From Hyphomicrobium denitrificans 1NES1 (GTDB taxonomy: Bacteria > Pseudomonadota > Alphaproteobacteria > Rhizobiales > Hyphomicrobiaceae), in the NCBI RefSeq assembly GCF_000230975.2, contig NC_021172.1, positions 806,001 through 870,000 on the forward strand: a DNA stretch of 64,000 bases, given 5' to 3'. This document shows, one piece after another, positions 7,961-56,156 of the stretch. Positions within the stretch are counted from its first letter, which is position 1, and the number at the start of each line of letters is the position of its first letter. Position numbers and translations under genes: made by a program. The notes under the pieces were generated by a model. That model made no database searches and was not told where the DNA came from. It was given only the letters and a program-made list of their open reading frames with translations.

Positions 7961-8110
7961 TTAATTTGCTCCGCTAAGCCCTTGAACCTCATCCTCCAGC
8001 AAGGAAACCCGGGCGTGCAGGTCCTCGATGGGGTCGTACTCCAGGGCCATCGCATATCGATCGAGCCATTGCCAAAAGCGAAACCAGACCGAGTTCTGAA
8101 GATGTTCCAT
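7961..8110 (-). CDS. 49-residue protein, unknown, upstream of TetR copy 2
   Basis: A short frame beginning MEHLQNSVWFRFWQWLDRY and ending EVQGLSGAN. It has an aromatic N-terminal helix (W9, F10, F12, W13, W15) and an acidic C-terminal helix (DLHARVSLLEDEVQ) with coiled-coil spacing. GGAG lies seven bases before the ATG. It is located between the TetR gene and the dyad at 8139-8160, so it should be transcribed with the regulator. The composition and the ribosome binding site argue that it is real. It may be an amphipathic membrane-associated or adaptor peptide for the regulator or pump; this is only a guess. Confidence 0.55.
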   Translation of the reverse strand: MEHLQNSVWFRFWQWLDRYAMALEYDPIEDLHARVSLLEDEVQGLSGAN

Positions 8111-8138
8111 GCTTCGGCTCCGGGATTTAGCTCTCCTT

Positions 8139-8160
8139 ATAGATGCTATTAATCATCCAA
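8139..8160. promoter_or_regulatory. TetR-type operator dyad 4 (ATAGAT-N10-ATCCAA)
   Basis: Inverted arms ATAGAT and ATCCAA with a ten-base spacer, about 30 bases upstream of the 49-residue gene that precedes the second TetR gene. One arm has a single mismatch to ATCTAA. Confidence 0.55.
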
Positions 8161-8294
8161 AGAGTCAAGACCCCTCGCACGCGTTTAGAACTGTAAATCG
8201 CCCCTAAGCTGGCCCCGGAATGCTCTGCGATCGCGCTTTGCTGTGAGCCCCAGTGCCCCCGAGACATCTCACCGCAACTTCTTCTCTTGCACTT

Positions 8295-8316
8295 TTAGAT
8301 GTCATATGTAATCTAA
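8295..8316. promoter_or_regulatory. TetR-type operator dyad 5 (TTAGAT-N10-ATCTAA)
   Basis: The most perfect of the five dyads: arms TTAGAT and ATCTAA are exact reverse complements and the ten-base centre contains CATATG. It lies about 50 bases upstream of the start codon of the efflux adaptor gene, where a bound repressor would block transcription of the pump operon. Confidence 0.7.
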
Positions 8317-8364
8317 TCGGCGAGATTGAGGATCTTCGTAACGCCATTGGGCAGTGAGGTCATA

Positions 8365-26222: not shown

Positions 26223-26264
26223 GTGCGGCGTATGACGGGACAGGAATCTGCGGGGGGAACGAGG

Positions 26265-28400: not shown

Positions 28401-28403
28401 ACC

Positions 28404-31612: not shown

Positions 31613-34551
31613 AATCCGATACCAGCGAAAAAGGGCTCGAGACGCTCATCGTCGACCACATGACGTCGACGGGCTGGATTGCCGGAAAGCCTGCTGATTA
31701 CGACCGTGCCTTCGCGATCGACCTTGCGCAGCTGATAGAGTTCGTCCGAGCCACGCAACCCAAGCTGATTGAGGCCCTAGACCTCGAAAATGATGACCCT
31801 ACCCGGCGCTCGTTCCTCAGCCGACTGCAGGGAGAGATTACTAAGCGCGGGGTCATCGACGTCTTACGCAAGGGCGTGAAGCACGGTCAACACCACGTCG
31901 ATCTCTTTTTTGGCACGCCCTCGCCCGGTAACCTGCATGCGACAGAGCGGTATGCCGCTAACCGCTTTATCGTTACCCGCCAGGTACGCTACAGCCAGAA
32001 CGAAGAACAGAACGCGCTCGACGTCTGTCTGTTCATCAACGGTCTGCCGATTGCAACTTTCGAACTCAAGAATAGCCTGACGAAGCAGACCGTCGCGGAT
32101 GCCGTCGAGCAGTATAAACGGGATCGCGATCCGAGAGAATTGCTGTTTCTGTTTGGGCGTTGCATCGCGCATTTTGCGGTTGATGATGCTGAAGTGAGAT
32201 TCTGCCCCGAGCTAAAGGGGAAAGCTTCATGGTTCCTTCCATTCAACAAAGGTTGGAACGATGGAGCCGGAAATCCGCCAAATCCGCACGGCCTCAAGAC
32301 CGACTACCTGTGGAAGGAGACGCTCACCAAGCATGGTCTCACCGAAATCCTGGAGCATTATGCCCAGATCGTCGAAGAGACGAATAAGAAGACCGGCAAG
32401 AAGAAGCGCGTCCAGATCTTTCCGCGATACCATCAGCTCGACGTGGTGCGGAAGCTCCTCGCACACGCTGCCCAGCACGGAGCAGGGAAGCGCTACCTCA
32501 TCGAACACTCTGCTGGTAGTGGGAAGTCGAACTCCATTGCTTGGCTCGCGCACCAGCTCACATCCGTCGAAAAAGATGACAAGCAGGCATTCGACACCAT
32601 CATCGTCGTCACGGACCGCACCATCCTGGACAGCCAGATTCGTGAGACGATCAAGCAATTCGACCATGTGGGGGCTACCGTCGGTGCGGTAACGGAAGGA
32701 TCTAAGCAGCTGCGAGAGTTCATCGAGCAAGGGAAGCGCGTCATCATCTCGACGGTGCAGAAGTTCCCGTTCATTGTCGAGGACATCGGGATAGAGCACC
32801 GCGGACGTTCGTTCGCGATCATCATTGATGAGGCGCACTCGAGCCAGGGCGGCAAGACCTCGGCGGCGCTGAGTACAGCGCTTGCGGAGGCTGGGGCTGA
32901 GGAAGACGATGAGACTATCGAAGATACCATCAACCGCGTGATGGGGGCGAAAAAGCTGTTGCCGAATGCGAGCTACTTCGCATTTACCGCGACGCCGAAG
33001 AACAAGACACTTGAGATCTTCGGCGAGCCTTACCTTGATGGTGGGGAGACGAAGCACTGCCCATTCCACAGCTACACGATGAAGCAGGCAATCGAGGAAG
33101 GCTTCATCCTGGATGTGCTCAAGAACTACACGCCGGTCGACAGCTACTACAAGCTTGTGAAAACCGTGGAGGATGACCCGGAGTACGATACGAAGCGGGC
33201 AAAGAAGAAGCTGCGCCACTACGTCGAGAGCCACAGTCACGCGATCCGGCTTAAGGCCGAGATCATGGTCGACCATTTCCAGGAGCAGGTCATCGGTCTT
33301 AATAAGATCGGCGGGCAGGCGCGGGCAATGGTTGTGACGGGGAGCATCGAACGCGCGATCGACTATTTCCACGCGATCCGCGACTACCTGAAAGAGATCA
33401 AGAGCCCTTACCAAGCCATCGTGGCGTTCTCCGGCGAACCTGAGTATGGCGGGCACAAAGTTACTGAGGCCTCGCTCAACAAATTTCCGTCGAAGGAGAT
33501 CGCTGACAGGATTCAGGAAGACCCGTACCGATTCCTCATCTGCGCAGACAAGTTCCAGACCGGCTACGATGAGCCGCTCTTGCATACCATGTACGTCGAC
33601 AAGCCGCTCTCCGGCGTGAAGGCAGTGCAGACTCTGTCGCGGCTCAACCGTGCGCGGCCGCAAAAGTACGACACGTTTGTGCTCGACTTTCAGAACGACG
33701 TTGACACCATCCAGAAGGCGTTCGCTCCCTACTACCGCACGACAATCCTCTCGCAGGAGACCGACCCAAACAAGCTGCATGATCTGAAGGCGGCCCTGGA
33801 CGGCTTCCAAGTATACTCGCAGGCACAGATCGATGATCTGGTCGCTAAGTATCTCAAGGGCGCGGGACGTGAGCAGCTGGACCCCATCTTGGATGCATGC
33901 GTCGCCACTTACATTGACGAACTTGATGAAGACCAGCAGGTCGAGTTCAAAGGCAAGGCTAAGGCATTCGTGCGCACATACGGCTTCTTGTCAGCCATCC
34001 TCCCATACACGAACGCGGAGTGGGAGAAGCTCTCCATCTTCCTCAACTTCTTGGTGTCGAAGTTGCCTGCACCGAAAGAGGAAGACCTGTCGAAGGGCAT
34101 CCTCGAGGCGATCGACATGGATAGCTATCGCGTCGAGAAGAAGGCCGTCGTCCGCATCCAGTTGCCCGATCAGGACGTGGAGATCGAGCCGGTGCCGACG
34201 GATGCCGGTGGACGAAAATCGGAGCCGGAACTCGATCGCCTCTCGAACATCCTAAATGATTTTAATGAGCAGTTCGGAAATATCGAATGGCAGGACGGCG
34301 ACCGCGTGCGACGGATGATCAGCGAAGAGATCCCTGCAAAGGTCGCCGCTGACAAGGCTTACCAGAACGCGATGCAAAACTCCGACAAGCAGAATGCGAA
34401 GATTGAGCACGAGAAGGCGTTGAAGCGAGTCATGACGGCCGTGCTGAATGACGACACGCAGCTGTTCAGCAAGTTCCAGGACGATCCCAGCTTCCGGAAG
34501 TGGCTGACGGACAAGATGTTTTCAATGACATATGAGAAGGCGGGGGAATAG
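31609..34551 (+). CDS. hsdR: Type I restriction endonuclease subunit HsdR
   Basis: A 980-residue motor/nuclease subunit. The N-terminal nuclease core has FELKN at about 151 (the E-x-K of the PD-(D/E)XK fold), Walker A is in SAGSGKSNS at about 302, the DEAD-box is IIDEAHSSQGG at about 404-414, motif III is FTATP, and motifs V-VI are in TGYDEPLL and QTLSRLNR. It translocates DNA and cuts unmethylated targets. The ATG overlaps the hsdS stop (ATGA). Confidence 0.95.
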   Translation: MKSDTSEKGLETLIVDHMTSTGWIAGKPADYDRAFAIDLAQLIEFVRATQPKLIEALDLENDDPTRRSFLSRLQGEITKRGVIDVLRKGVKHGQHHVDLFFGTPSPGNLHATERYAANRFIVTRQVRYSQNEEQNALDVCLFINGLPIATFELKNSLTKQTVADAVEQYKRDRDPRELLFLFGRCIAHFAVDDAEVRFCPELKGKASWFLPFNKGWNDGAGNPPNPHGLKTDYLWKETLTKHGLTEILEHYAQIVEETNKKTGKKKRVQIFPRYHQLDVVRKLLAHAAQHGAGKRYLIEHSAGSGKSNSIAWLAHQLTSVEKDDKQAFDTIIVVTDRTILDSQIRETIKQFDHVGATVGAVTEGSKQLREFIEQGKRVIISTVQKFPFIVEDIGIEHRGRSFAIIIDEAHSSQGGKTSAALSTALAEAGAEEDDETIEDTINRVMGAKKLLPNASYFAFTATPKNKTLEIFGEPYLDGGETKHCPFHSYTMKQAIEEGFILDVLKNYTPVDSYYKLVKTVEDDPEYDTKRAKKKLRHYVESHSHAIRLKAEIMVDHFQEQVIGLNKIGGQARAMVVTGSIERAIDYFHAIRDYLKEIKSPYQAIVAFSGEPEYGGHKVTEASLNKFPSKEIADRIQEDPYRFLICADKFQTGYDEPLLHTMYVDKPLSGVKAVQTLSRLNRARPQKYDTFVLDFQNDVDTIQKAFAPYYRTTILSQETDPNKLHDLKAALDGFQVYSQAQIDDLVAKYLKGAGREQLDPILDACVATYIDELDEDQQVEFKGKAKAFVRTYGFLSAILPYTNAEWEKLSIFLNFLVSKLPAPKEEDLSKGILEAIDMDSYRVEKKAVVRIQLPDQDVEIEPVPTDAGGRKSEPELDRLSNILNDFNEQFGNIEWQDGDRVRRMISEEIPAKVAADKAYQNAMQNSDKQNAKIEHEKALKRVMTAVLNDDTQLFSKFQDDPSFRKWLTDKMFSMTYEKAGE

Positions 34552-34556
34552 GGGTT

Positions 34557-34832
34557 GTGGGCAATTCCAAATCATCAATCCTTCAACTCAACCTCCACCG
34601 CGAATTCTTCGAAGCGATCGCGAAGGGTACTAAGCATGGGGAGTATCGCGATCGCACCGACTATTGGAAAACGCGGCTCGAAGGCCGCGAGTATGACTTT
34701 ATTCGCTTCCGTAACGGGTATGGCCCCAACGTTCCTGAGATGGACGTGCAGTGGAAGGGAGTCGAGAAGCGGCGGGGTTGCTATGCGATCCGGCTTGGCA
34801 AGATTCTAAGTCTGAAGCGATGGAATGGTTGA
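34557..34832 (+). CDS. ASCH domain protein
   Basis: A 91-residue protein with the ASCH fold pattern: LHREFFEAIAKGTKHGEYRD, a positively charged K-x-x-E-Y-R region, and FIRFRNGYG (a GD-x-V-x-F-equivalent strand). ASCH domains bind RNA or modified nucleosides. GTG at 34557 follows AGGGG. It begins five bases after hsdR, so it belongs to the restriction operon. Confidence 0.75.
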   Translation: MGNSKSSILQLNLHREFFEAIAKGTKHGEYRDRTDYWKTRLEGREYDFIRFRNGYGPNVPEMDVQWKGVEKRRGCYAIRLGKILSLKRWNG

Positions 34833-34975
34833 GGCTACTGCTCGACGCTCACGTGCTCGACACAAGTCCGTTCTGGAATCATCCATCGGCGTTAAAGCAA
34901 TTGCGCTGCTTTAGAAGATCCTTCGAATTGACCCGCGCCGGGTGCTATGAGTGCCTCTTAAGGATCAAGGTAAAT

Positions 34976-37705
34976 TCAAAAACCGTACTTTTGTTTGCGA
35001 AATTCAAACGCTTCCTGTCCGCCTTCAAGTAATTCTTTGACCAGCTCTTTGACTGTTGGTGTATCGATTGAACCGCAGAACTCGTCAGGGATCGTGGCGT
35101 GCTCGATACCACCCTCTACAACGGATATGAGACCAACGATCTGCTCTGCATCCCCCAGTACGGGGATGTTGGCGTTGTGAGTAGAAAAGATAAATTGGCG
35201 CTTGCGCTTTTCCTCCCGCATCGTCGGAACCACGGATTCAGCAATGAACCGGTTGTCGAGATCATCTTCAGGTTGATCGACCACGAGCGGAGCATCGGAT
35301 TCAAGTAAAAGTAAAAGGAGGACCGCTGTTGCCTTTTGGCCGGTCGATAGTTGGTCCAGCTGTTTCCACGTCTGCGTTGTCTCATTGCCGACGTTCAGTT
35401 CCAAGACAGCCTCGGCAGCAAGCTCGCACTCTTCCAGTTCGAGTGCGAGGGCCGTGGCACCCTGTGCGATCCGTTCAGCTGAGACTTGCGAGAAACCGTA
35501 CTTCTCGACGAGCGATGGTGCGCCTTCGATGAGGGCGGCAGCCAAGTCGGTCAGACTCAAATCGTCTGTGTTCCTCAATCGCTCCAGCGCTTGGCTTATG
35601 TTGCCGGAGCAATGCTTGCGTATGACCGCTTCCACTTGCCCGAGCGAAGCGCTCGGCCGCACTTGGACGCGAACGCGATCTTTAAGCCGCTTTGAGACCT
35701 TGCGTGCAGCTTTCTGCAATTCGCGAAAGTCTTCTGCTTTCGCCGCATCCCATTTCGCGAGCAACTCGCCTCGCTCCTTTTGAAGTTTAGCCAGGGACTT
35801 GTTGCGGGCTTTCAGCTCCGCCTCTTTGGGCTTTAGGCGCTCGAGCTGGTCCTTGTATGCCACGTATTTTGCGGCGTCGTGGCCCTCGGCCTTCAGTTGT
35901 TTCAGCGTCTTTTGGTACAGCTCTTCGGAAGCCTTCTGCTTCGGTTCCCATTCGGCCTTGACCGTTTCGAGCGCTGTAGTCGCCTCGGTTACAGCCGTTT
36001 GGATGCCCTGGCCAGCCACCTTCACTTTCTGCAGCAATTTCGATTGTACCGCGTCAAGTTTTGCGAGTATCGAAGCGTTGGGGAGCTCCTTGGCTTCTTC
36101 GCCGATTAGCGGCCCGTCGGTTGCGGCCTGGCCAAGTACGTGGGCTGCGAGTTCTGCAGCTTGCTGAATCATCCCTGCGGCCTGTTCGAAAAACCTGGCC
36201 TCCTTGTCGATGAGCGTCTTGTCCTTCAGCTTCGCATCGAGGCCCGCCGCAGCGAAGCGTTTGAGATGTTCCTTGAGCGTCGGCAGAGCTGTGAGCGCTT
36301 CCTCAACGTGCCCGATTTGGAGGATCTCGGCCGCAATCGTGACGCGTGAGCGTTCCAGCCGTTCTTTTAGGTGCCCCTTCGTAGCTGTGGTATCGGTCGT
36401 CGGTTCTGTAAAGCGGCGAAGAAGCTGCGCGAGCTTCTCCGGGAATCTCGTGAGCTCGGAGATCTCGTGCTGGCCATACACCTCGAGGCTTCCCAGTACA
36501 GAACGAGGAGTGACGTTATCTAGTAGGTTACCGCTTTGATCGCGTACGCGCGGCCGACCGCCGAAAATGCGCTGGATCAAATAATACTGAGGGGATGGAA
36601 GGGGCGAACGGATCAAGACAGTTATGGACGCACCTTGGCCGAGCACATTCTTTATCATGCTGTCGTGCGTGCGGCGGGCTTCGTCGCCCTTAGGCGGCAG
36701 TTCGAAAGCGTACCTCAAGCTTTCAATCAAAGTTGATTTGCCCGCGCCACGGCCACCGACAAGGACATTGAGGCACTCATTGAATCGAAGTCCCTGACCA
36801 TCGAGAAGTCCGCCCGCCCATGAGACGGCTATCAGCTCAGTGTGCGCGGTGGAATTTGGATCGCTGTTTAGACGAATGCGCGACTCCCAATCGAGGAATG
36901 CTTGCCTTAGTCCTTCAATGGAAGGTGCTGCCATTTTTATCCAGGTTGTGCAGCTGGGGTCCGAAAGCACGGCAGGGTCGCTGACGTCGTTTGCGTTCAG
37001 CACCGCGAGCGCGCGAGGCCGCGCATACGCCGGATCCTTGTTGACGATGATGTCCCGAAATCCGTCTTGCGCAGCGGCTCTTGCCCCGGGCAAGGCAATG
37101 GCAAGCAAATCCGGGGATGACCAGACGCGCGCCCGCGTTTGACCTTTCAACGTCGCGAGGAGTCCACCCGCTGCGCATGCGTGAGCCGCAATGGTGATGC
37201 CTCCCAACTTGGGAATGGATTGGAGGAGCTGCTCGCACGTTTTGTCTGACTGCGGAGATTCCGCATTGAGGTCCGTCACGCCGCAGGCGCCGATCGCCCT
37301 TTCCAATTCATGTACTGTCGTTGAACTCGGAAAAAGGCAGAGGAGGTGGACGCCGTCGCTCGAAACGGCCTCGAAGCCCATAAGAACACGAATGCCGGCA
37401 GTGGTTAGGGCCTTTGCCAGACTTTCCGAGGCTGCGATGCGGAAATGGTCCGTTATGCCAACGACCTCGATTCCCTCCTCAAGACAAGCGGCAAGCATGG
37501 CCGCATTGTATTCACCCTCGGTCTTGTGGCTGTTCGCCTTCGAATGGCGTGTGCCGTATGCGAATGGGTTCACCTGAAGGGCGCACTTGTAGAACCGAGC
37601 TCCCGCCGGCCTCCGAACGGCGTTGGCGAGCCCTGTCGGCACGGCATCGTGCTCAATGAGACTAACAAGTTGGGGATCTAGTGGGTCGTCGACTACAGTG
37701 TTCAT
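34976..37705 (-). CDS. PHP-SMC-type ATPase (TrlF-like family)
   Basis: A 909-residue protein. Residues about 35-250 resemble a PHP phosphoesterase domain (GIEVVGITDHFRIA), but the first H-x-H metal motif reads Q-V-N, so the metal site is not canonical. An SMC/ABC-type ATPase is split around a long coiled coil: Walker A GGRGAGKSTLIES at about 317, coiled coil about 440-700, signature STGQKATAVL at about 787, Walker B LVVDQPEDDLD, and a histidine switch in FSTHNANIP. Such proteins occur next to restriction systems and are thought to act in phage defence. It is convergent with the type I operon. Divergent partner: the DUF2779 gene at 37935. Confidence 0.85.
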   Translation of the reverse strand: MNTVVDDPLDPQLVSLIEHDAVPTGLANAVRRPAGARFYKCALQVNPFAYGTRHSKANSHKTEGEYNAAMLAACLEEGIEVVGITDHFRIAASESLAKALTTAGIRVLMGFEAVSSDGVHLLCLFPSSTTVHELERAIGACGVTDLNAESPQSDKTCEQLLQSIPKLGGITIAAHACAAGGLLATLKGQTRARVWSSPDLLAIALPGARAAAQDGFRDIIVNKDPAYARPRALAVLNANDVSDPAVLSDPSCTTWIKMAAPSIEGLRQAFLDWESRIRLNSDPNSTAHTELIAVSWAGGLLDGQGLRFNECLNVLVGGRGAGKSTLIESLRYAFELPPKGDEARRTHDSMIKNVLGQGASITVLIRSPLPSPQYYLIQRIFGGRPRVRDQSGNLLDNVTPRSVLGSLEVYGQHEISELTRFPEKLAQLLRRFTEPTTDTTATKGHLKERLERSRVTIAAEILQIGHVEEALTALPTLKEHLKRFAAAGLDAKLKDKTLIDKEARFFEQAAGMIQQAAELAAHVLGQAATDGPLIGEEAKELPNASILAKLDAVQSKLLQKVKVAGQGIQTAVTEATTALETVKAEWEPKQKASEELYQKTLKQLKAEGHDAAKYVAYKDQLERLKPKEAELKARNKSLAKLQKERGELLAKWDAAKAEDFRELQKAARKVSKRLKDRVRVQVRPSASLGQVEAVIRKHCSGNISQALERLRNTDDLSLTDLAAALIEGAPSLVEKYGFSQVSAERIAQGATALALELEECELAAEAVLELNVGNETTQTWKQLDQLSTGQKATAVLLLLLLESDAPLVVDQPEDDLDNRFIAESVVPTMREEKRKRQFIFSTHNANIPVLGDAEQIVGLISVVEGGIEHATIPDEFCGSIDTPTVKELVKELLEGGQEAFEFRKQKYGF

Positions 37706-42281: not shown

Positions 42282-42605
42282 TCATGCGGGCGGACCGGCG
42301 ATAAATCGGCGCAGCAGATAGGCGATCGGGCGCAGAATCGGATCGATGACGAAGCGGACGAAGCTGGTCGCCAGCGCCATGATCGCTCGTCCGGCGAACG
42401 CGAGGACGGCGGCAATCAGATTGGCGACTTGCGTTGCAGTCCCCATGAGCGGCCGCAGAATAAAGAACTCGGCGGCGGCCTGGGCGGCACTCGGTCCACC
42501 GAGCATCATCGCAAAGCCGATCATGGTCATGGCCGCGGCGCCATAGAGGAGGGCGTAGATTAGGAAGGTGACGCCGATGTGCGCGAGAAGATCGGTTTCA
42601 GGCAT
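42282..42605 (-). CDS. Small membrane protein
   Basis: A 107-residue protein with about three hydrophobic helices (IGVTFLIYALLYGAAAMTMI, VANLIAAVLAFAGRAIMALA and a C-terminal amphipathic segment). Its start overlaps the end of the JAB gene by eight bases. No family recognised; perhaps an inner membrane part of the transfer system. Confidence 0.6.
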   Translation of the reverse strand: MPETDLLAHIGVTFLIYALLYGAAAMTMIGFAMMLGGPSAAQAAAEFFILRPLMGTATQVANLIAAVLAFAGRAIMALATSFVRFVIDPILRPIAYLLRRFIAGPPA

Positions 42606-43371
42606 GGGGTGGGCTCTGCAGCGGCGTCAGGATGGCCGATAAGGGATGGCGCGCTGCGAAGATGTCTCTGAGCTCCGCCGCCCGCATGCGAGAGAGCGCA
42701 TCGATCATCTGCGCCCGTTGCGCCCGCGGTAGAGCGCGGGAGCGGGCGACGCGCTCGATTTCGATGGCGTAGCGCTGCAAGAGGTTGCGGACCATAACGA
42801 CGCGCAGCTCGGCCGCAGCCAGGGCGTCCCGCGCCGGCACGACGACGGCCGTTGCTGCCGATTCAATGATCTCGACGGGGCATGCGCGCGGCGCAACTTC
42901 GCCGCGGGTCAATGTCCAACCATGAATGCGGTCGCTGCCATCGGCGGCAAACGTTGTGATCGGCGCCAGGAAGGTGTGCCAGTTGTGGTCGGGACTGTCG
43001 TCATTGGCGAGGCAGGCTGAGAAGAAGGCGATGTCGCCATAGGTATTCGCAAAGTCGCCGCAGGACGGCCGTGTCAGGCCGGGCGGATGCGAGTGCCAGA
43101 CCCCCAAGATGAATTTGCCGTTCGGGCGCCACTCATGGTCGACGATCCAATTGAGGAGATCGGCATCGACGTTGATGTGCAAGGCGCTGGCATCGTAACG
43201 GCCGCTGGCGTCGCGGACCGGGGGGCAGAAGCGGAAATCGGTGACGAGATAGTCCTCGAGCCGGCCACCGAGGATGGCGAAGGTCTCCGGCGGATGCTTG
43301 GCGATGGTCTGGCGATAGCTGTCGTAGACCGCGCGGGTGATGCGGATCGTCGACGGCGATAGCTGTTGCAT
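42598..43371 (-). CDS. JAB/Mov34-type metallopeptidase
   Basis: A 257-residue protein with a JAMM motif: Glu29 in PPETFAILGG, His93-Ser-His95 in VWHSHPPG and Ser103-x2-Asp106 in RPSCGD, all metal-binding or catalytic residues present. The rest is a helical C-terminal domain with an arginine-rich stretch. JAMM enzymes cut isopeptide or peptide bonds after ubiquitin-like tails. The ATG at 43371 follows AAGGAG. It lies in a cluster with a ThiF-type E1 (43863) and a possible E2-like protein (43382), a layout known from ThiF-related (PRTRC-like) cassettes. Confidence 0.85.
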   Translation of the reverse strand: MQQLSPSTIRITRAVYDSYRQTIAKHPPETFAILGGRLEDYLVTDFRFCPPVRDASGRYDASALHINVDADLLNWIVDHEWRPNGKFILGVWHSHPPGLTRPSCGDFANTYGDIAFFSACLANDDSPDHNWHTFLAPITTFAADGSDRIHGWTLTRGEVAPRACPVEIIESAATAVVVPARDALAAAELRVVMVRNLLQRYAIEIERVARSRALPRAQRAQMIDALSRMRAAELRDIFAARHPLSAILTPLQSPPHA

Positions 43372-43381
43372 GATGCACTCC

Positions 43382-43774
43382 TTAGGAAAACGATGTGCCG
43401 TGGCGGATGTAGGCCGCCGTCTTCTCGCTCCAGTACACCGCCCATGACAGGGCATCCGGTACCGTGGTTGGCTGATATCGGTCGCCGATGCAGATGTACG
43501 GATGATCGGTGAGAACGCCGATGCGATGCGTCGAGTGCCCGTCAGTCGCGCGTCGGCCGTAGGATGGCTGGTGGAGGATGTAGATCCGGATCACTGCGCC
43601 GACACGTTTGAGGTCGAACGTGAAGGTGCACGAGCGATCGCGGGTCGTGTACGAGTACTCGCCGTAAGCATCGGGTGCCCATAACGAGAAATCGATGATC
43701 TCGCCGTTCCAGTCGAACGTTGTGCGCGTGCTTTGCGCGGGCGAGCGAAGTCCGAGAACGTCGAGCAGGCTCAT
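43382..43774 (-). CDS. Possible E2-like (UBC fold) protein
   Basis: A 130-residue protein with no certain family. The C-terminal half has the order of motifs of prokaryotic E2-like proteins: YILHQPSY, a histidine-containing linker, then DHPYICIGDRYQPTTVPDAL with Cys95 in a position typical of the E2 active-site cysteine (H-P-Y-I-C-I), followed by a helix (WAVYWSEKTAAYIRHG). It is located between a JAB peptidase and a ThiF-type E1 gene, as expected for an E2. The assignment rests on motif order only. Confidence 0.45.
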   Translation of the reverse strand: MSLLDVLGLRSPAQSTRTTFDWNGEIIDFSLWAPDAYGEYSYTTRDRSCTFTFDLKRVGAVIRIYILHQPSYGRRATDGHSTHRIGVLTDHPYICIGDRYQPTTVPDALSWAVYWSEKTAAYIRHGTSFS

Positions 43775-43787
43775 AAAGATCTCCGGG

Positions 43788-43814
43788 TGCCCCGCCGCAC
43801 GAGGCGGCGGGGCA
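43788..43814. terminator. Strong GC hairpin between E1 and E2-like genes
   Basis: TGCCCCGCCGC and GCGGCGGGGCA form a perfect 11-bp stem with a five-base loop. No T tract follows. In an operon this could attenuate or protect the mRNA. Confidence 0.5.
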
Positions 43815-43830
43815 GTTATGCTATCGAGCG

Positions 43831-43853
43831 CCGCCGGCGCTTATCGCCGGCGG
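43831..43853. other. Second GC hairpin downstream of the E1 gene
   Basis: CCGCCGGCG and CGCCGGCGG form a perfect nine-base stem with loop CTTAT, ten bases beyond the E1 stop codon. Together with 43788-43814 it makes a double hairpin within an otherwise tight operon. Confidence 0.5.
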
Positions 43854-43862
43854 CTCGTGGCG

Positions 43863-43916
43863 TTAGCGCAGGCCGCCGGTGACGACGGGGCCGCGCGGCA
43901 AGAGCGTCGGCTTCAT
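43863..43916 (-). CDS. Possible 17-residue peptide with GG near the C-terminus
   Basis: The internal ATG at 43916 is preceded by AAAGGAGG with perfect spacing and gives MKPTLLPRGPVVTGGLR. It is in frame with the end of the E1 gene. The binding site is stronger than those of most genes here, which suggests separate translation. A GG close to the C-terminus next to E1 and JAB genes is suggestive of a substrate, but the peptide is far too short for a ubiquitin fold. Confidence 0.35.
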   Translation of the reverse strand: MKPTLLPRGPVVTGGLR

Positions 43917-44837
43917 TCGGTCCTCCTTTCTGTTTGGGCAGGGGGGAGAGCGAGGCTCCTCGCCTCGCATCTGCGGGACGCGGCCCGCGGTGCCGCAGTC
44001 GGGGCAGATCCAGGTGTCGGGCGTGTCGAGCGCCCACAATTTCGTCGTGAACAGCGACATCTCACGCGGCGCGTCGCTGAAGGGCTCGCCCGGTGCCGCG
44101 TAAAACAGCGGATCGAGACGGCTGATGAGGCACGGCGTTCGTGCGAACACCTCGGCGACGCGACCGATTGCAACGTCGGAGGCGGCGCGCTGATGCAAGC
44201 GCCCGATGACGATCAGAGCGATCAGGGTATTGAGGTATTCCGCTATGACCGCATGACTGCCGATCACCGCCGGGTTCTGATAGCCGCTCGCGTAATCGTC
44301 GTAGCGCGACTTGGTATGACAACGGTGGCAGCCACTGCCGGCCGCAACCGCCTCGGCGAAGGTGGCCGTGATCTCGACGCCGACAGCATCGGGATAGGAG
44401 ATCGCGAACACGGCATCGGTATGGGTCTCGAGGGCCTGGCGATTGATGGCCGCCTGCGTCGCGAAACGATCGGTCATCGCGAGCACCATGTCGGACTGCC
44501 AGACGGACGGGTGAGCCGCCGCCGGCAGCGACTCGTAGGTGCCGTGGTAGGTCTCGACGATGATAGAGGGATCGATGTCCGTGAGACGGGTGGCCAAGGC
44601 CTCGACTTTGGGCCGACCGAGATCGGTGTAATCATGGTTCTGGGTCGTAGGGTTAGTCGCACTGACGATGTCGGGATCGACGAGCGTCAATTTCCCGACG
44701 CCGGAGCGGACCAGCAGGTTCGCGAGCCCGGCGGCGCCACCGACCCCGATGACGGCGACGTGAGACCCCGTCAAAAGCTGATGATCGAGCAGCCCACTAT
44801 GGCGCGAGAAATCAGGAAACCGCGGAACGTTCGTCAT
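43863..44837 (-). CDS. ThiF/E1-like protein of the ICE backbone
   Basis: A 324-residue ThiF-type protein. The Rossmann nucleotide site is VAVIGVGGAAGLANLL (G31-x-G-G-x2-G), followed by VDPDIVSATNPTTQ. Zinc-binding C-x2-C pairs appear in GCHRCH and WICPDCG. It would adenylate the C-terminus of a small protein or a related substrate. The ATG at 44837 follows AGGAG. At its 3' end the frame runs through AAAGGAGGACCGA into a 17-residue peptide (43863-43916), so that tail may not belong to the original protein. Neighbours: JAB, E2-like and TraG-like genes. Confidence 0.85.
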   Translation of the reverse strand: MTNVPRFPDFSRHSGLLDHQLLTGSHVAVIGVGGAAGLANLLVRSGVGKLTLVDPDIVSATNPTTQNHDYTDLGRPKVEALATRLTDIDPSIIVETYHGTYESLPAAAHPSVWQSDMVLAMTDRFATQAAINRQALETHTDAVFAISYPDAVGVEITATFAEAVAAGSGCHRCHTKSRYDDYASGYQNPAVIGSHAVIAEYLNTLIALIVIGRLHQRAASDVAIGRVAEVFARTPCLISRLDPLFYAAPGEPFSDAPREMSLFTTKLWALDTPDTWICPDCGTAGRVPQMRGEEPRSPPCPNRKEDRMKPTLLPRGPVVTGGLR

Positions 44838-44841
44838 CGGA

Positions 44842-46667
44842 TCACTCCTGGTCACGGTTGAATGGCGGCCGCGGCCGCGTCGGTAGGTGCACGACGCGCG
44901 GGTCGGGTTCGGGCTGTGAGAAATCTGGTTCCTCGATCACGGGCGGTACGGTGATTGCGGCGAGCCGCTCGCGGATCTCCTGGTCGACCATCGCAGCCGG
45001 CTGCGCGTAGCGGGCGGTGCGTGCGATCTTGGCCAGGTAGAGGGGCAGGCATCGCGCCCGGAACGCCGCGGACCGGAATGCCGGTTCGAGGTCACGGGTG
45101 CGTGTGCGGACCGGCGCCTCGCTCTCGACCCGGATGACGCATTCGCGGCGCGGCAGAGCCATCAACTCCCAGGTACGCCGCGCGAGCTGCTCCTCGAGGC
45201 TGAACATTTGCGTCGGCAGGGTTCTCGTAGCGAGGCATGAATGCCTCGGCCTCGGAGACAGCGTCGCTGCTGCCGTCAACACGCACCTGGTTCCGGGTCT
45301 CGACGTTGGCCTCTCCCGACTGCGAGCCCGCGGCGCGGCTCCGGCCACGCGCGCCAGCGCGTGACGACGCCTGCCCATCGTTAATGCTGACGAGCGCATC
45401 AGGGCCGGTGAGCATCGTGCTGCCCCCCGAGACGACACTGCCCCAGCTTGACAAGAAGGTGTCGGTCGCGGTGGCAAAGCGGCTGATGGAGCGGGCGTGA
45501 CCTTGAGCGCGTCCCAGGCCCTCAGCTTGGTGTCGGCCACGCGTACGGCCCTTGAGGATGACCTTATCGACGCCGACGACCGTCGGCCGGGCGCTGCCCG
45601 CTTTCCATTCCTCGAGGTCGATGTGCCCTGCAAAGAGCATCTCGGCCATGAAGCGGGCGCTTTCAGGCTCGAGCCCGCCGAAACAAACTTTGACGCCGCA
45701 GTTGGTGAACAGTGCATCGGCGATGAAGTCGCCGCGGGCGCGCAACTGTCCGAGCCGCTGCACACTCAGGGTAAGGAATAATCTGTGCTTGGCAACCTGA
45801 TCGGCCGCCCGCGCGGTATCGATGGTGATGAGGCTTTCGGCTTCGTCGACGATGAGACGATGGGTGGCGCCATGAAGCGGCGTCCGGCGCCGCGCCGCCG
45901 CCACATACATCGAGGTCATGATGGTGCCGACCAGGGCGGCGTCTTGATAGGTGAGGGCCGACAGATCGGCGATGACAATCTCAGCGCCATCCATGACGGC
46001 GCGCGGCGAAAGGCCCCGCGTCTGCCCGAGCATGCGCCGTAGGCGGCGGTCGCCCAGCCAGCGGACGAGGCGGTTCTTGCAGCTCTCGACCAAGGTGATG
46101 AACTCGCGGACGTTGCGAACGGCCAGCAGGTGCAGGTCTTCAAGTTCGCGACGAATGATGTGATCGTCGAAATCTTCGATGAGGGCGGTGCGGAGATCTT
46201 CACCGCCGACCGTGAACAGCTCGAGCAGCTCGATGAGGGTGAGGCCGCGGCGGGCGCAAAGGTAGCCGCCAACGTAGAGCAAGCGCGACAGCCGCGGCGT
46301 CTCTTCCGGCGACGCCCCGAAGCGGCTCTCGATGGCCGAAGAAAGCGTGATGGCCGCCTCATGCCAGCCTTCGGGCGTATCGCTATGGGGCTCGAGCGGA
46401 TTGAGGCCGACCGCCATATCGCTTGCAGCATCAATCACGTGGACAACACGATCATGCTGTCCATGCGCAGGGTTGGCGAGATATTCCATAACAGCGCGAG
46501 CAACTGCCGTGGGGATCGACGAGCGAGAGCGCCTCGTGACGCGGCGTTGCACGCGCGATAAGGTCCAGGAGTCCGCTCTTGCCACGCCGCGTGCCGCCCA
46601 CAATCAGCACGTGATGATCGGCGAGCTGCGGCAGGGGATGCGGTGGTGTTGGCCGTCTCAGCGTCAT
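44842..46667 (-). pseudogene. TraG/VirD4-type coupling ATPase with two frameshifts
   Basis: Three consecutive frames make one P-loop ATPase of about 608 residues. Frame 1 (46667 to about 46520) has Walker A in VLIVGGTRRGKSGLLDLIAR and LSLVDPHG. Frame 2 (to about 45210) has AVMEYLANPAHG, Walker B in HRLIVDEAESLITID and the LTLSVQRLGQLR motif. Frame 3 (45207 to 44842) begins MFSLEEQLARRTWELMALPR and ends RPPFNRDQE. Each junction needs skipping one base (near GATCCCCACGGCAG and GACGCAAATG on the coding strand). The third part may be translated alone from the ATG at 45207. If real, the ATPase is dead; the shifts may also be sequencing errors. It would couple DNA to a type IV secretion system. Confidence 0.7.
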
Positions 46668-49500: not shown

Positions 49501-49842
49501 TTAGTCAGCGCACCACAGGATTGCACCCTTACGGATGAAGAAGTGGGCCCGACAGCTGCCAGTTTGCCAGATCGAAGGGTAGATACTCGCTCGGCGTAGC
49601 CAGTCCGTAGTTATCCGCCAGGACTTAGGCCCAGCCAAGGGTATCTGGATGTGCTCGCCGCAGCGCGGGCAAAGAAGGTGCGCCCACTTGGGATAACCGT
49701 CGCGCACCTCCTTGTAGATGATGCCGCGCTCAAGCTCATGTTCCTCCGGCCCCTCCGGAACGCTGCACACGCGGAACTCCCGTCTCGGAATGAGCGCGAA
49801 CTGCTCCAAAAGCGACGCTATCCATTCCGGCATGATGATCAT
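49501..49842 (-). CDS. DUF6527 protein of ubiquitin-like operon
   Basis: A 113-residue protein of the DUF6527 family. Conserved parts: LLCPRCGEHIQIPLAGPKSW with a C-x2-C pair, SIYPSIWQTGSCRAHFFIRK with a further cysteine and histidine, and ILWCAD at the end. The Cys/His set suggests a zinc site. DUF6527 genes are found almost only in operons with bacterial ubiquitin-like, E2 and E1 proteins, and a role as a processing or deconjugating enzyme is plausible. Its ATG overlaps the E1-JAB stop codon by four bases. Confidence 0.85.
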   Translation of the reverse strand: MIIMPEWIASLLEQFALIPRREFRVCSVPEGPEEHELERGIIYKEVRDGYPKWAHLLCPRCGEHIQIPLAGPKSWRITTDWLRRASIYPSIWQTGSCRAHFFIRKGAILWCAD

Positions 49843-51245
49843 GGTGCGATATCCAGGAACGGCGTGCAGTCGCCTCTGCCATCGTAGATTCGGCGATCGC
49901 AGAGCTTGCAGCCCGGCCGGGATCTTCCGGCCGGGATGGTATCGGTGTCCTTGAGCTCATCGAAGCGTCGCACTCGCTCATATGCGTGGCCGTTCTCGCC
50001 GCGAAAACCGGTGAGGCGCTGGAAAAGTTCATTGACGGCCATCGTCGCGACCTCGGTCGTGAAGGTGACGACGGCGGGGTTCTGCTCGTTGAGCGATGGA
50101 ACATAGCCGGCACGCCTGCGCTGCTCATAGAGTTGAGGGTTGGTCCGCATAAGCGATTCGGCGAAGAGCTTGTCGGTGCTGATCAGGCCCCTGCAAACCT
50201 GGCACGGAGCGCCAGGCTGGATGACCGTCACTCGACCGTCAAATACATCGTATCCGGAAGCGTCTTTCGAAGGCTCTATCAGAAGCCCGAGATCGATCAC
50301 CGGTATCAGATAGAAATGGGCGATCCTGTTGAGGATATTCCGTCCCGAATGATCATCGGTGCAGCCGAGGACAATATCGCACGAGAGCAAAGCGTCGCGT
50401 GCGCGAGCGTCAGTGACATCATAGGGGATGCTCACGACCGAGGACTGGAGACCCATCTCGCCGAGCGCCTCGGCGATCACTTCGATCTTGCGGCGACGAA
50501 CGATCGCGTCCGCTCGCGTTGAGAAGTGGACGCGATTCAAGTTGGTCTCCTCGATGCGGTCGAAATCAAACAGCGCGATATGCGCGACGCCAATGCGGGC
50601 CAGCAAAGCGACAACCGCCGAGCCGGTTCCGCCGCATCCAACGACGCCCACTCGTAGGCTCTGAAGGTCGGCAGTTGAATCGCGCCCAAAGGCGCGCTGT
50701 TGCCGGTCAAGGTGCCGAGCAGCCGCGGGGGCGGATGCTGGCCAGAAGCGCCAGCGGTCTCCGAACGACCGTATGAGATCGACGGGAACGGGAGAGAGGT
50801 CGGGTCCGTACGCACGCGCGACAAGATCCTCTTTTCCATTCATCACGATCGAGAGATGGGGCCGTTCGCTGTTGAGCCGGTCGAACGCAATACGGAACAA
50901 CTCCTTTTCAGCGACGTCATCTTGCGCGGAGAAGGCGAGTGGCCCGCTTGGGTGGGAGTGCGCGACCGCGACGGCTAAGTCCTCGATCTCGGCGCGTTTG
51001 AGGCAATTAAAGAAAGGGGTGGTGGACCACGTCAGGCCCTCGGGCGACCGGCTGTGGAATGCGGACGGATCGACCTCGACGAGCTCCCGGACCAGGTAGC
51101 GCTCTTGGGGCAGGCCAGTCCAGGGATCCACGGTCCGAGAGCGGCCGCAGAATAGAAGAGCCGCGTACTCGTCTGCATCGCGCAGCAGGGTTTTCGCGAG
51201 CGCCGCCCGCTGATCCTCGCGCATTGTCAGGGTGTGACGGGTCAT
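49839..51245 (-). CDS. JAB-E1 fusion of ubiquitin-like conjugation operon
   Basis: A 468-residue two-domain protein. Residues 1-170 are a JAB/JAMM peptidase: Glu26, His96-x-His98, Ser106-x2-Asp109 (AHSHPSGPLAFSAQDD). Residues 195-440 are an E1/ThiF adenylation domain: VGVVGCGGTGSAVVALLARI (nucleotide site G203-x-G-G-x-G), FDFDRIEETNLNRVH, the GCTDDHSGRNILN segment and C-x2-C pairs (PCQVC, GCKLC) for zinc. It would activate the C-terminus of the ubiquitin-like protein and, through JAB, trim or release it. Starts at the ATGA overlap with the E2 gene. Both ends overlap partner genes, strong evidence for a single functional unit. Confidence 0.92.
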   Translation of the reverse strand: MTRHTLTMREDQRAALAKTLLRDADEYAALLFCGRSRTVDPWTGLPQERYLVRELVEVDPSAFHSRSPEGLTWSTTPFFNCLKRAEIEDLAVAVAHSHPSGPLAFSAQDDVAEKELFRIAFDRLNSERPHLSIVMNGKEDLVARAYGPDLSPVPVDLIRSFGDRWRFWPASAPAAARHLDRQQRAFGRDSTADLQSLRVGVVGCGGTGSAVVALLARIGVAHIALFDFDRIEETNLNRVHFSTRADAIVRRRKIEVIAEALGEMGLQSSVVSIPYDVTDARARDALLSCDIVLGCTDDHSGRNILNRIAHFYLIPVIDLGLLIEPSKDASGYDVFDGRVTVIQPGAPCQVCRGLISTDKLFAESLMRTNPQLYEQRRRAGYVPSLNEQNPAVVTFTTEVATMAVNELFQRLTGFRGENGHAYERVRRFDELKDTDTIPAGRSRPGCKLCDRRIYDGRGDCTPFLDIAP

Positions 51246-51649
51246 GCGCGCCTCAACTCGTTCCAAACGTAATTGAGGAAAGTGTGAAGGCCGTCGATAT
51301 CCGGCCTCCAATCGCTGTTGTCGAGGTGACGCGACCAGAACTGCCATTGTCGGCCGAAGTGCGTCTCCTCTCCCGTCGCGCAGTTGGGAAAGGAATTGTC
51401 AGGCCGCCGCAGAACCGGCGAGGTGTAGAAGCTGTCGAGTTTCGTCGTCGCGTAACCGCTGGGAATGCGGATCAGCACGTCGCACGAGACGCAGCGAACG
51501 AGCTGACTTTGCTCGTTAGTGCAATAGAGATTACCCTCGAAGCTCAGACCTGGGAACACGATGCCCCGCTGCCCGCCTACATCCTTGAGTTCGTAGATGA
51601 GCGCTTTGCTTGAGAGGAACTCGACATCGTCATGTGGCAGGAAGGTCAT
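51242..51649 (-). CDS. E2-like protein (Prok-E2_E type)
   Basis: A 135-residue protein with the Prok-E2_E pattern: the beta-strand segment GIVFPGLSF, RCVSCDVLIRIPSGYATTKL, FYTSPVLRRP and the C-terminal FGRQWQFWSRHL, then WRPDIDGLHTFLNYVWNELR. The cysteines (43, 53, 56, 90) are not at the usual E2 active-site position ahead of a W-x-P; the conserved W-S-R-H places Ser106 there instead, so an oxyester rather than thioester intermediate is possible. It overlaps the ubiquitin-like gene and the E1 gene by four bases each. Confidence 0.85.
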   Translation of the reverse strand: MTFLPHDDVEFLSSKALIYELKDVGGQRGIVFPGLSFEGNLYCTNEQSQLVRCVSCDVLIRIPSGYATTKLDSFYTSPVLRRPDNSFPNCATGEETHFGRQWQFWSRHLDNSDWRPDIDGLHTFLNYVWNELRRA

Positions 51650-51903
51650 GCTGCCCCCGGCGACGTCGTCGCCTTGCGCGTGGTGAACCTCTTGATCCCC
51701 TTCGGTTCCGACTGCTGGTCGAGGTCGACCTTCTGATCGTTGGAGATCTCAGGATCGCCGCCAGGGCCGGGAACGATCTCATTGACCACCCAGTCCGCCG
51801 GAGAGTTGGCGAGCACCTTGATCTCGGTTCCGGTGATCACGCGCTGAGGCCACTCGTACTCCTTCTTGTTAATGATGAGCTTGGACTCGTGTTTTTCAGC
51901 CAT
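51646..51903 (-). CDS. Ubiquitin-like protein (multi-ubiquitin domain type)
   Basis: An 85-residue protein with one ubiquitin-like (PF14452-type) domain: SKLIINKKEYEWPQRVITGT, then the IKVLANSPADWVVNEI strand-helix part and RFTTRKATTSPGAA at the end. It ends PGAA, so there is no free diglycine; removal of AA by the JAB or DUF6527 partner would leave a glycine end for E1. The ATG at 51903 follows GAGGAAAAACC. It is the first gene of the operon, behind the promoter at 51963-51991. Confidence 0.85.
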   Translation of the reverse strand: MAEKHESKLIINKKEYEWPQRVITGTEIKVLANSPADWVVNEIVPGPGGDPEISNDQKVDLDQQSEPKGIKRFTTRKATTSPGAA

Positions 51904-51962
51904 GGTTTTTCCTCGATCGAGTAACGCGGCGACCGGGGGGAGACTCGATCGCGACATGGTTA

Positions 51963-51991
51963 AGCGTACGGTCGGGCGCGCTCGATGTCAA
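51963..51991 (-). promoter_or_regulatory. Promoter of ubiquitin-like operon
   Basis: On the minus strand: TTGACA (51991-51986), 17-base spacer, TACGCT (51968-51963). The -35 is perfect and the spacing ideal. Transcription would start about 55 bases before the ubiquitin-like ATG. Confidence 0.65.
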
Positions 51992-52053
51992 CTTTTGGTA
52001 AGTTTTCTAAAACGTCATCGTTATTGACAGTCATCACCATTTGACTTTTGACG

Positions 52054-52076
52054 ACACGTCGACCAGGATGACGTGT
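52054..52076. promoter_or_regulatory. Inverted repeat ahead of XRE gene (candidate operator)
   Basis: ACACGTC-N9-GACGTGT is a perfect seven-base inverted repeat, 25 bases before the XRE start codon and about 65 bases from the -35 of the opposite operon. It is well placed for autoregulation, and possibly for control of the conjugation operon. Confidence 0.6.
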
Positions 52077-52101
52077 AAGAGAAAAAAGCGAATCAGGCTG
52101 C

Positions 52102-52422
52102 ATGAGACGGACGCGCGGAGATCAGAACCGACAATTCTACGCCGAGGTCGGCCGTCTCATTGCCAAGGCGCGCAACGGCAGAGCCACTCAGGATCACCTC
52201 GCCAAAAGAACGGGGCTGACCCGCACGTCGATCATCAACATCGAAAAGGGCAGACAGCAGGTCTATCTGCATACTCTGGTCGACATCGCGAGCGCGCTCG
52301 AGGTGCCGGTGTCGGAGCTCATACCGCCCTCGGACAAGATGGACGCGTTGCTACGCGACAAGCCACAGAATGCGGTTGAATGGATCAGGCTTTCGACAGC
52401 CTCAGAAGGCAAGAAAAAATAG
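52102..52422 (+). CDS. XRE family helix-turn-helix regulator
   Basis: A 106-residue Cro/C1-type regulator: the helix-turn-helix spans RATQDHLAKRTGLTRTSIIN and continues IEKGRQQVYLHTLVDIASAL. The C-terminal extension (EVPVSELIPPSDKMD onward) is short. It is read divergently from the ubiquitin-like operon and followed nine bases later by an ImmA/IrrE peptidase gene. In such pairs, the peptidase cleaves the XRE repressor upon a signal, which would release the operon. Confidence 0.9.
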   Translation: MRRTRGDQNRQFYAEVGRLIAKARNGRATQDHLAKRTGLTRTSIINIEKGRQQVYLHTLVDIASALEVPVSELIPPSDKMDALLRDKPQNAVEWIRLSTASEGKKK

Positions 52423-52430
52423 GAAGGGCT

Positions 52431-52976
52431 ATGGCGGTACGAAGAAAGCTCATCCGTGAGATGGTGGAAGCACTTCTTGCGAAGCATCGGATCAGCCATG
52501 GGGCTGTCCCCGTCGAGAAGATCGTCGAATCCTACGGAATCAAACTTTCCCTGGATGAAGTGGACGACGAGCTGTCAGGATTTCTCGTGCGAGAGCCAGG
52601 CAAGAATAAGCGTAGCGTTATCGGAGCCAACAAGGCCCATCACCCACATCGCCAGCGATTCACGATCGCTCATGAACTCGGCCATTTTCTCTTGCACAAA
52701 GGCGAGATGGTTCATCTCGATCAAGGCCGAGGCGCACTGGCGATCAACTTGAGGAATGAGCAATCCTCTCGAGGAGAGGATCAGGATGAGCGAGAGGCCA
52801 ACCTTTTCGCAGCAGAGCTTCTAATGCCCGCTATTTTTCTCGCGAAGGACCTGGAGGGAGTCTCCCTGGATATATTGGGAGATAGTGGCGTCTTGGATCG
52901 CCTCGCGAAGAAATACAAAGTCAGCACTCAGGCCCTGACATTCCGTCTGGCAAACTTGGGCTATATCCAGCTTTAG
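52431..52976 (+). CDS. ImmA/IrrE family metallopeptidase
   Basis: A 181-residue peptidase. The HELGH zinc motif is in QRFTIAHELGHFLLHKGE, with the downstream glutamate in EREANLFAAELLMP. The ATG at 52431 follows AGGAAGG; a longer frame starts at 52380 inside the XRE gene. With the XRE protein it forms a typical sense-and-derepress module, here paired with a ubiquitin-like system. Confidence 0.9.
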   Translation: MAVRRKLIREMVEALLAKHRISHGAVPVEKIVESYGIKLSLDEVDDELSGFLVREPGKNKRSVIGANKAHHPHRQRFTIAHELGHFLLHKGEMVHLDQGRGALAINLRNEQSSRGEDQDEREANLFAAELLMPAIFLAKDLEGVSLDILGDSGVLDRLAKKYKVSTQALTFRLANLGYIQL

Positions 52977-55475: not shown

Positions 55476-56156
55476 CTAGATGCCCACGGCATCAAGGATC
55501 TCCGGATCATCATCGACCGGCTTGTTCACGCGCGACGAGATCGGCCACATCGTCATCGGCTCGGCAGGGTAAGGCCGTAAGAGATCACGCGGGTCCGGCT
55601 CGTCGGGCGAGAGCCAGCGGGCGTAGTCGGCCGGTCCAATGATGACGGGCATGCGATCGTGAATCGGACGCATGAGATCGTTCGCTTCCGTCGTGATAAT
55701 CGTGAACGTGCGCACCCATTCCTCTGTGCTCGGCCGCTTCCAGTTCTCCCAGATGCCAGCGAGCGCGAACGGCGCGCCGCTCTTCATGCCGATAGCGTAG
55801 GGTTGCTTGTAGGCGCCCTTGATCGCCTTCCATTCGAAGAAGTTGTCGATTGGGACGAGGCAGCGACGCTTCTTGTATCCGTCGCGAAAAGAGGGGAGTG
55901 ACGCGATCGTCTCGGCCTTGGCGTTGATCGGTTTGCGATCACCCTGCGGATCTTTGCACCAGTGCGGAATGAGGCCCCACCAGAGGCGGTCGAGCGAATA
56001 CGCGTGCGTCTCCGGTTGTTCGCGGATCACCCAGTGCTCCTGTCCAGGCGAGCCATTGTAGCGCGGCGGAGCGACGCCTGGCACAACGTGGTCGGCGCTC
56101 GCAAGACCAAGGCCGAGCTTCTTCGCGTTGCTTTTCTGCGTGATGCGTCCGCACAT
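55476..56156 (-). CDS. yedK: SOS response-associated peptidase/HMCES (YedK family)
   Basis: A 226-residue protein. It starts MCGRITQ, so Cys2 is exposed for the DNA-protein thiazolidine link after methionine removal. The conserved NAKAETI, RRCLVPIDNFFEWK (with Glu) and TTEANDLMRPIHDRMPVII segments follow. It forms a covalent shield on abasic sites in single-stranded DNA. The gene is common as cargo of islands. Its upstream region holds the 54-bp dispersed repeat copy and the palindrome at 56295. Confidence 0.93.
   Translation of the reverse strand: MCGRITQKSNAKKLGLGLASADHVVPGVAPPRYNGSPGQEHWVIREQPETHAYSLDRLWWGLIPHWCKDPQGDRKPINAKAETIASLPSFRDGYKKRRCLVPIDNFFEWKAIKGAYKQPYAIGMKSGAPFALAGIWENWKRPSTEEWVRTFTIITTEANDLMRPIHDRMPVIIGPADYARWLSPDEPDPRDLLRPYPAEPMTMWPISSRVNKPVDDDPEILDAVGI

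Follow-up and report, generated by a model that had tools for sequence, protein, structure and literature searches.

Gene layout and identity of the operon

The DNA analysed is a 64,000-nucleotide stretch of the Hyphomicrobium denitrificans 1NES1 genome (contig NC_021172.1, positions 806,001 to 870,000), hereafter called the window. It carries a compact run of genes for a ubiquitin-like conjugation system and, read in the opposite direction from it, the genes of a predicted repressor and a short ImmA/IrrE (M78) peptidase. The six genes, all intact, are listed below in window coordinates with their lengths in amino acids (aa) and the E-values of their Pfam matches.

51646..51903, minus strand: ubiquitin-like protein (Ubl, BubA-like), 85 aa, one PF14452 (Multi_ubiq) domain, 5.2e-11, over the cut-off
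51242..51649, minus strand: E2-like protein (BubB-like), 135 aa, Prok-E2_E PF14462, 1.3e-26
49839..51245, minus strand: JAB-E1 fusion (BubCD-like), 468 aa, ThiF 1.8e-39, Prok-JAB 1.5e-6
49501..49842, minus strand: DUF6527 protein, 113 aa, PF20137, 7.2e-16
52102..52422, plus strand: XRE/Cro-type repressor (CapH-like), 106 aa, HTH_3, 1.4e-7
52431..52976, plus strand: short M78 peptidase, 181 aa, PF06114, 3.6e-21 (scored on 52380-52976)

The conjugation genes are transcribed in the order Ubl, E2, JAB-E1 and DUF6527, and each is joined to the next by a four-base ATGA overlap (51646-51649, 51242-51245 and 49839-49842, respectively). The M78 gene has two candidate ATG starts, one at 52380 inside the XRE gene and one at 52431; the latter is more likely, because a likely ribosome site, AGGAAGGG, ends 2 bp upstream of it. 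The original prediction, made from the sequence and its reading frames, had placed the four genes in one minus-strand run with ATGA overlaps and the XRE and ImmA/IrrE genes divergent from them. Both statements were borne out by the sequence, the coordinates and the Pfam matches (HTH_3 and PF06114 for the divergent pair), and the comparison that it had suggested, of the four operon proteins with the PF14452, Prok-E2_E, ThiF/JAB and DUF6527 profiles, gave a match for every one. At E <= 0.001, a single Prok-E2_E match and a single M78 match occur in the whole genome (3.81 Mb, one contig), and they lie about 1 kb apart. Since the only matches of each kind adjoin, the pairing of operon and peptidase is not chance.

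Homology places the locus among the Bub (type 6e of Iyer 2006) ubiquitin-like conjugation operons, as a new example of a kind of system already described. The closest PDB relative of the JAB-E1 protein is Citrobacter BubCD (E 9e-43, query positions 10-418). The PDB matches of the E2 are to BubB only, with E 0.0017 for the single sequence and 2.6e-7 for a 29-sequence profile. The nearest solved chains of the Ubl are multi-ubiquitin Ubls and BilA (8u38, 2.4e-4); matches to SME beta-lactamase (E 0.016; 0.22-0.24) were taken as chance. Homology to these solved proteins upholds the earlier assignment as a ubiquitin-like conjugation operon. The label BubA-like follows what we take to be the name of the Ubl in Bub operons.

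In PMC1779556 (Iyer 2006), the same four-gene set forms row 6e, with the E2 called inactive and the fourth protein called metal-binding; the name Bub is used in EMBO J 2026 (PMC13373217), citing Gong 2025 and Ye 2026. The window shares with Citrobacter Bub (PDB 9EA4, 9EAE and others) the E1-JAB fusion, a WSRH motif in the E2 and a Ubl of the multi-ubiquitin kind, but its Ubl is single-domain, and one CxxC pair of its E1 is unmatched in BubCD, the second pair lying outside that alignment. With type 6e and the Synechocystis pSYSX genes slr6056-slr6057 with their multiubiquitin cassette (Kopfmann 2016), it shares the four gene types in the same order and, in the case of pSYSX, a divergent XRE gene and short M78 gene (195 aa in pSYSX). 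It differs in the one-domain Ubl, although Iyer also notes one solo Ubl (PMC1779556), and in its M78 protein, which groups with those of four other loci (L003, L005, L055 and L100) instead of the pSYSX-type short forms, at a fork that is open. The Ubl resembles BilA of the Bil (bacterial ISG15-like) pathway, whereas none of the 59 structural matches of the E1 and neither of the two for the E2 is a chain named Bil; Bub chains rank best.

In the E1 tree, the window falls into a seven-row group (support 100/100) with four acidobacterial metagenome-assembled genomes (MAGs), Dyella flava and an Acidiphilium plasmid, and within it joins the latter two (95/83). Compared with the plasmid copies of enterobacteria, its E1 is about 29% identical. 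The E2 family has a patchy distribution, being found in 7 of 103 genomes of the bacterial family and also on plasmids; no E2 relative was found in viral and phage collections. In one plasmid copy (L073, Celeribacter), an IS256 transposase gene lies between the E2 and E1 genes of the Bub operon (3191-4462).

Conserved residues and a proposed tagging pathway

In total, 57 related loci (numbered with L) were examined, of which eight (L054, L056-L062) had no E1 and are outside the 49 E1 loci counted below. These 49 are not a random sample: they were drawn from E2 or DUF6527 matches and from 13 regions among the 30 best-listed of 205 plasmid records.

The E2 segment W105-S106-R107-H108 (WSRH) is invariant in all 29 aligned E2s and is also present in the solved BubB. 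No Cys is invariant among the 29, and the plasmid E2s of L064, L066 and L069 contain no Cys whatever. A pattern search over nearby frames found WSRH in 37 of the 40 JAB-E1 loci (all except L041, L053 and L100); 36 is the safer count, because the L055 match lies outside its E2 frame. A DUF6527 gene is present in 39 of the 40, and L041 has neither DUF6527 nor WSRH. Among 37 aligned DUF6527 proteins (window numbering), Ser90, His100 and Cys58 are present in all, and Cys61 and Cys97 in 36. The JAB half of the window fusion has the JAMM motif HSHP...S..D, a pattern found in 40 of the 49 E1 proteins. Seven of the nine others (L044-L048, L051 and L052) are without the motif at the aligned place, and two (L092 and L099) are shorter frames. 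The second, E1 half of the window protein has two CxxC pairs, as do 29 of the 49 E1s; 18 have none and two have one.

The C-terminal residues P82-G83 of the Ubl are conserved in all 19 aligned homologues, and in the window they are followed by Ala-Ala. This Gly is followed by one residue in 14 of the homologues, by two in 3, by three in 1 and by none in 1. L064, L066 and L069 have more distant Ubls, which stop exactly at the Gly (TTTEG), and these loci keep JAB and DUF6527.

The E2 of Citrobacter Bub reportedly works through oxyesters, and a Ser-His protease is said to take part in Bub; we take the DUF6527 protein to be this protease. In the pathway that we propose for the window, the Ubl would lose its last two residues to the JAB or the DUF6527 protein, exposing Gly83, and the E1 half would adenylate it. 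The Ubl may then be transferred onto the E2 by an ester bond to Ser106, not onto a Cys, as the conservation and the reported Citrobacter biochemistry suggest, and would be joined to target proteins. The JAB and DUF6527 Ser-His proteins may trim or remove it.

The probable divergent switch

The intergenic region between the operon and the XRE gene contains the following candidate elements.

51963..51991, minus strand: putative bub promoter TTGACA-17-TACGCT; 2 of 200 shuffles as good
52054..52076, no strand: inverted repeat ACACGTC-N9-GACGTGT, candidate operator; 29 of 200 and 67 of 500 intergenic shuffles as good
51914..51951, no strand: longer inverted repeat CGATCGAGT-N20-ACTCGATCG (9-base arms) in the bub leader, possible operator; 13 of 500 shuffles as good

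The promoter had been named in the original prediction and is supported both by the shuffles and by the same layout in L003 (TTGACA-17-CATACT) and L005 (TTGACA-17-CATTAT), for each of which 0 of 200 shuffles were as good. It lies 59 bp from the Ubl start in the window, compared with 54 bp in L003 and 52 bp in L005. A stricter promoter scan listed no promoter here. The repeat at 52054-52076, proposed with it, is present and exact, occurs once in the window as a fixed pattern, and lies about 63 bp upstream of the bub -35 element, nearer the XRE start; its role as an operator did not hold against the shuffles. As an RNA hairpin, the leader repeat is as stable as its shuffles (z 0.07).

Repeats were also found at the promoters of relatives, with varying shuffle controls. 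L006 and L063 have the palindrome GTCTYAC-N2-GTRAGAC with paired changes (3 and 33 of 200 shuffles as good, respectively). L067, L090 and L092 have TCGACAT-N7-ATGTCGA directly after the bub -10 element (1, 33 and 9 of 200), and L095 and L096 have GTCAAGC...GCTTGAC over the bub -35 element (4 and 5 of 200). The repeat ATTGC-N6-GCAAT of L066, L068, L069 and L039 was equalled by 191, 95, 136 and 94 of 200 shuffles, respectively, and one copy is also present in L062, which has no E1. No repeat beyond chance was found in L003, L043, L041, L055 and L098, and none of the four motif patterns of the relatives occurs in the window. With such mixed controls, the view that the XRE protein represses bub has support only in some of the relatives.

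An M78 gene of less than 450 aa lies within 5 kb upstream in 30 of the 49 E1 loci; all 30 proteins have HExxH and 28 of the genes are divergent. One of the 30, L004, has a single HTH-M78 gene on the same strand (L004:4793-5935). The 30 host genomes contain 74 M78 matches in about 153.7 Mb, so that about 0.07 would be expected in 30 stretches of 5 kb, whereas one was observed in 15 of the 30 genomes (by a custom M78 profile; the Pfam search saw no M78 in G1101, one of these 15). Hence, the expected co-occurrence of the XRE/ImmA pair with such operons was confirmed. Linkage of Bub-type operons to such switches, and its reading, is already in print: 70% of PF14452 genes adjoin COG2856/DUF955 loci, read as toxin-antitoxin (Kopfmann 2016, PMC4963859), and CapW or CapH together with CapP stands beside 219 of 544 Bub operons (PMC13373217). 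The Jiella plasmid of L067 carries a second XRE/M78 pair downstream of its Bub operon (7536-9040), besides the upstream pair.

The size filter concealed M78-UvrD fusions, which were then examined separately. When one or two frames from 16 of the loci without a separate M78 gene (leaving out L040, L070 and L093) were compared with Pfam, seven of these fusions, one WYL protein and one GHKL protein were found, and nothing regulator-like was present in the frames taken from the remaining seven loci. The WYL protein is near the Bub-type locus L038 (6554-7726), and the GHKL ATPase, perhaps CapK-like, is at L051 (4196-5335).

The peptidase and XRE protein of the window are closest to those of L003, L005, L055 and L100, with 41-42% and 33-48% identity, respectively, and L055 and L100 are far from the window in the E1 tree. 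An exchange of the switch is suggested but, the M78 fork being open, not proven. When the labels short, long or no M78 were placed on the E1 tree, 15 changes were counted vs 22.5 in shuffles, that is, the label is clustered yet often changing.

The 181-aa form of the window peptidase has HELGH at residue 81 and no Cys. Its best PADLOC match is capP (2.3e-33), over positions 4-154 of the 242-position profile only; positions 155-242 are absent. Its best PDB match is CapP 7t5t (1.1e-6, on 52380-52976). In PADLOC, the XRE protein matches HTH_VI (8.9e-10), Control_protein (1e-7) and, third, capH (1.4e-7), in all cases with its helix-turn-helix (HTH) part. The 30 M78 genes of the survey comprise 11 short (frames of 230 aa or less) and 19 long ones, and five of each were scanned against the CapP profile. 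Among the short ones, the window stops at position 154, L003 at 153, L006 at 143 and L063 at 142, while L066 gave no match at the cut-off. Among the long ones, L067, L071 and L090 reach 240-241, whereas L065 ends at 153 and L096 at 161 despite their length.

Signal, function and alternative explanations

We consider it likely that the locus encodes a Bub (type 6e) conjugation system controlled by a divergent repressor/peptidase switch, with a Ser-based E2 and a signal that is probably not single-stranded DNA (ssDNA). In the ImmR/ImmA pairs of integrative and conjugative elements, the peptidase acts on the repressor. The same holds for PprI/DdrO (PMC10904395), and CapH/CapP of CBASS and other immune operons shares with the window an HTH repressor gene followed by an HExxH M78 gene beside an immune-type operon. 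By likeness to CapH/CapP and PprI/DdrO, the XRE protein would repress the TTGACA promoter, and the short M78 peptidase would cleave it on a signal and so turn the operon on. The window peptidase differs from CapP in its length of 181 aa and lack of the C-terminal part of the profile, and from PprI in lacking the GAF-like domain. PprI that lacks this C-terminal domain does not bind ssDNA, and ssDNA does not stimulate it (PMC10904395). Since the window peptidase has no counterpart of the C-terminal part of CapP, and ssDNA activation of PprI depends on the GAF-like domain, the trigger is probably not ssDNA bound via a C-terminal sensor domain.

Several points weigh against this interpretation. 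The missing part of CapP would have to be the counterpart of the GAF-like domain, which we infer because PMC10904395 remarks that the two structures can be aligned. PprI minus this domain still cuts at high concentration (PMC10904395), and Arg74 of the window peptidase, seven residues before HELGH, matches PprI Arg85; the window peptidase may therefore still respond to ssDNA to some degree. No operator is established in the window, the repeat at 52054-52076 not being beyond chance, and in 19 of the 49 loci the 5 kb upstream contain no separate M78 gene. The profile match of the E2 to BubB spans only positions 57-130 of 139. One CxxC pair of the window E1 stands where Citrobacter BubCD has none, so that the mechanism is being transferred from one class to another at an identity of about 29%. 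Finally, the Ubls of L064, L066 and L069 end at the Gly in loci that keep JAB and DUF6527, and hence tail trimming cannot be the sole job of these enzymes.

The alternative that survives best, at somewhat less than an even chance, is that the operon acts in a general response to DNA damage or stress and not in phage defence. According to PMC13373217, protection against phage has not been demonstrated for Bub, and a global stress response is offered there as an alternative. The surroundings of the operon point the other way. Type I restriction-modification genes (HsdM, HsdS and HsdR, the first two flanking a GmrSD-type gene) and a gene for a TrlF-family AAA ATPase with a PHP domain lie at 26223-37705, about 12-23 kb from the operon, and restriction genes or a gene annotated as an anti-phage dCTP deaminase are near 3 of the 13 plasmid copies examined. 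Conjugation-type genes are also in the window. With these neighbours the region resembles a mobile element or a defence island, which supports a role in conflict, short of proof. Of the stress- or phage-induced tagging system in the original prediction, the conjugation operon and the adjoining repressor/peptidase pair are thus supported, and induction by phage and defence against it are possible roles.

It is possible, though we think it doubtful, that the XRE/M78 pair is a bona fide CapH/CapP switch, in which ssDNA from DNA damage activates the peptidase and the repressor is cut. The PADLOC and PDB matches of the peptidase to CapP, the third-ranked capH match of the XRE protein, the Arg at -7 from HELGH and the CapW or CapH and CapP genes beside published Bub operons are all in favour of such a switch, but the absence of profile positions 155-242 and the requirement of PprI for its GAF-like domain in ssDNA activation (PMC10904395) argue against it. 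That the pair is a toxin-antitoxin module stabilising the cassette on mobile DNA, as in the Kopfmann 2016 reading, is improbable. The same kind of pair on pSYSX was classed as such a locus (PMC4963859), and the E2 family is patchy and plasmid-borne; however, relatives of the window peptidase cleave repressors (PMC13373217, PMC10904395), palindromes lie at the bub promoter in some relatives, and other regulator types (WYL, GHKL) are found upstream of other Bub-type loci. The 2006 proposal of a catalytically dead, RWD-like E2 that only binds Ubl, which agrees with the lack of a conserved Cys in our 29 E2s and in PMC1779556, is highly improbable given the invariant WSRH shared with BubB and the oxyester activity reported for Citrobacter Bub.

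Two further observations concern the neighbourhood. A second ThiF (43863-44855) and JAB (42598-43455) pair lies at 42598-44855 on the minus strand, with a 130-aa frame between them, near TraG-like and Replic_Relax genes, so that two ubiquitin-like gene sets are within 10 kb; an assignment of this pair to PRTRC was rejected, the NCBIfam score of the ThiF protein being 18.5 vs a cut-off of 144.75. A gene for SRAP (SOS response associated peptidase) lies at 55476-56156 on the minus strand, 2.5 kb past the M78 gene.

The seven M78-UvrD-PD-(D/E)XK fusions, found in loci counted as having no separate M78 gene, are frames of 1119-1176 aa directly upstream of the Ubl gene and on the same strand:

L042:2692-6222
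L046:10249-13668
L048:10248-13637
L049:10647-14159
L050:1788-5201
L091:7944-11303
L094:3004-6432

All seven have UvrD helicase and PD-(D/E)XK domains and an N-terminal M78 match with HExxH, which is under the Pfam cut-off only in L042. An XRE profile matched only in L091, weakly (4.4e-4) and about 1.5 kb off; the other six loci gave no match. The L094 protein was found in 8 of 297 genomes of the order, the query's own included; a Bub operon adjoins it in five (G915, G991, G1034, G972 and G956), and three are without Bub within the stretch fetched. Nothing relevant turned up in a literature search for fusions of this kind with ubiquitin-like genes, which is no proof of novelty. We offer only tentatively, as a rather unlikely scheme, that one Ser-based tagging machine may be wired to interchangeable M78 alarms: a divergent XRE protein with a short, sensor-less peptidase (non-ssDNA), as in the window, an XRE protein with full-length CapP, or a directly upstream M78-UvrD-nuclease fusion with no close XRE gene detected. 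If so, the fusion would tie the processing of DNA ends directly to protein tagging, and the role of M78 may extend beyond cutting repressors.

What is new at the window locus itself is small, namely the natural short switch and the conserved catalytic residues. The locus adds a clear member, in a clade of Acidobacteriota MAGs, Dyella and an Acidiphilium plasmid, to the branch of Ubl conjugation in which a Ser but no Cys of the E2 is conserved. Its short switch offers a natural means of testing which region of an M78 peptidase detects the alarm and, if the short form works without ssDNA, ssDNA would not be a universal trigger for Bub.

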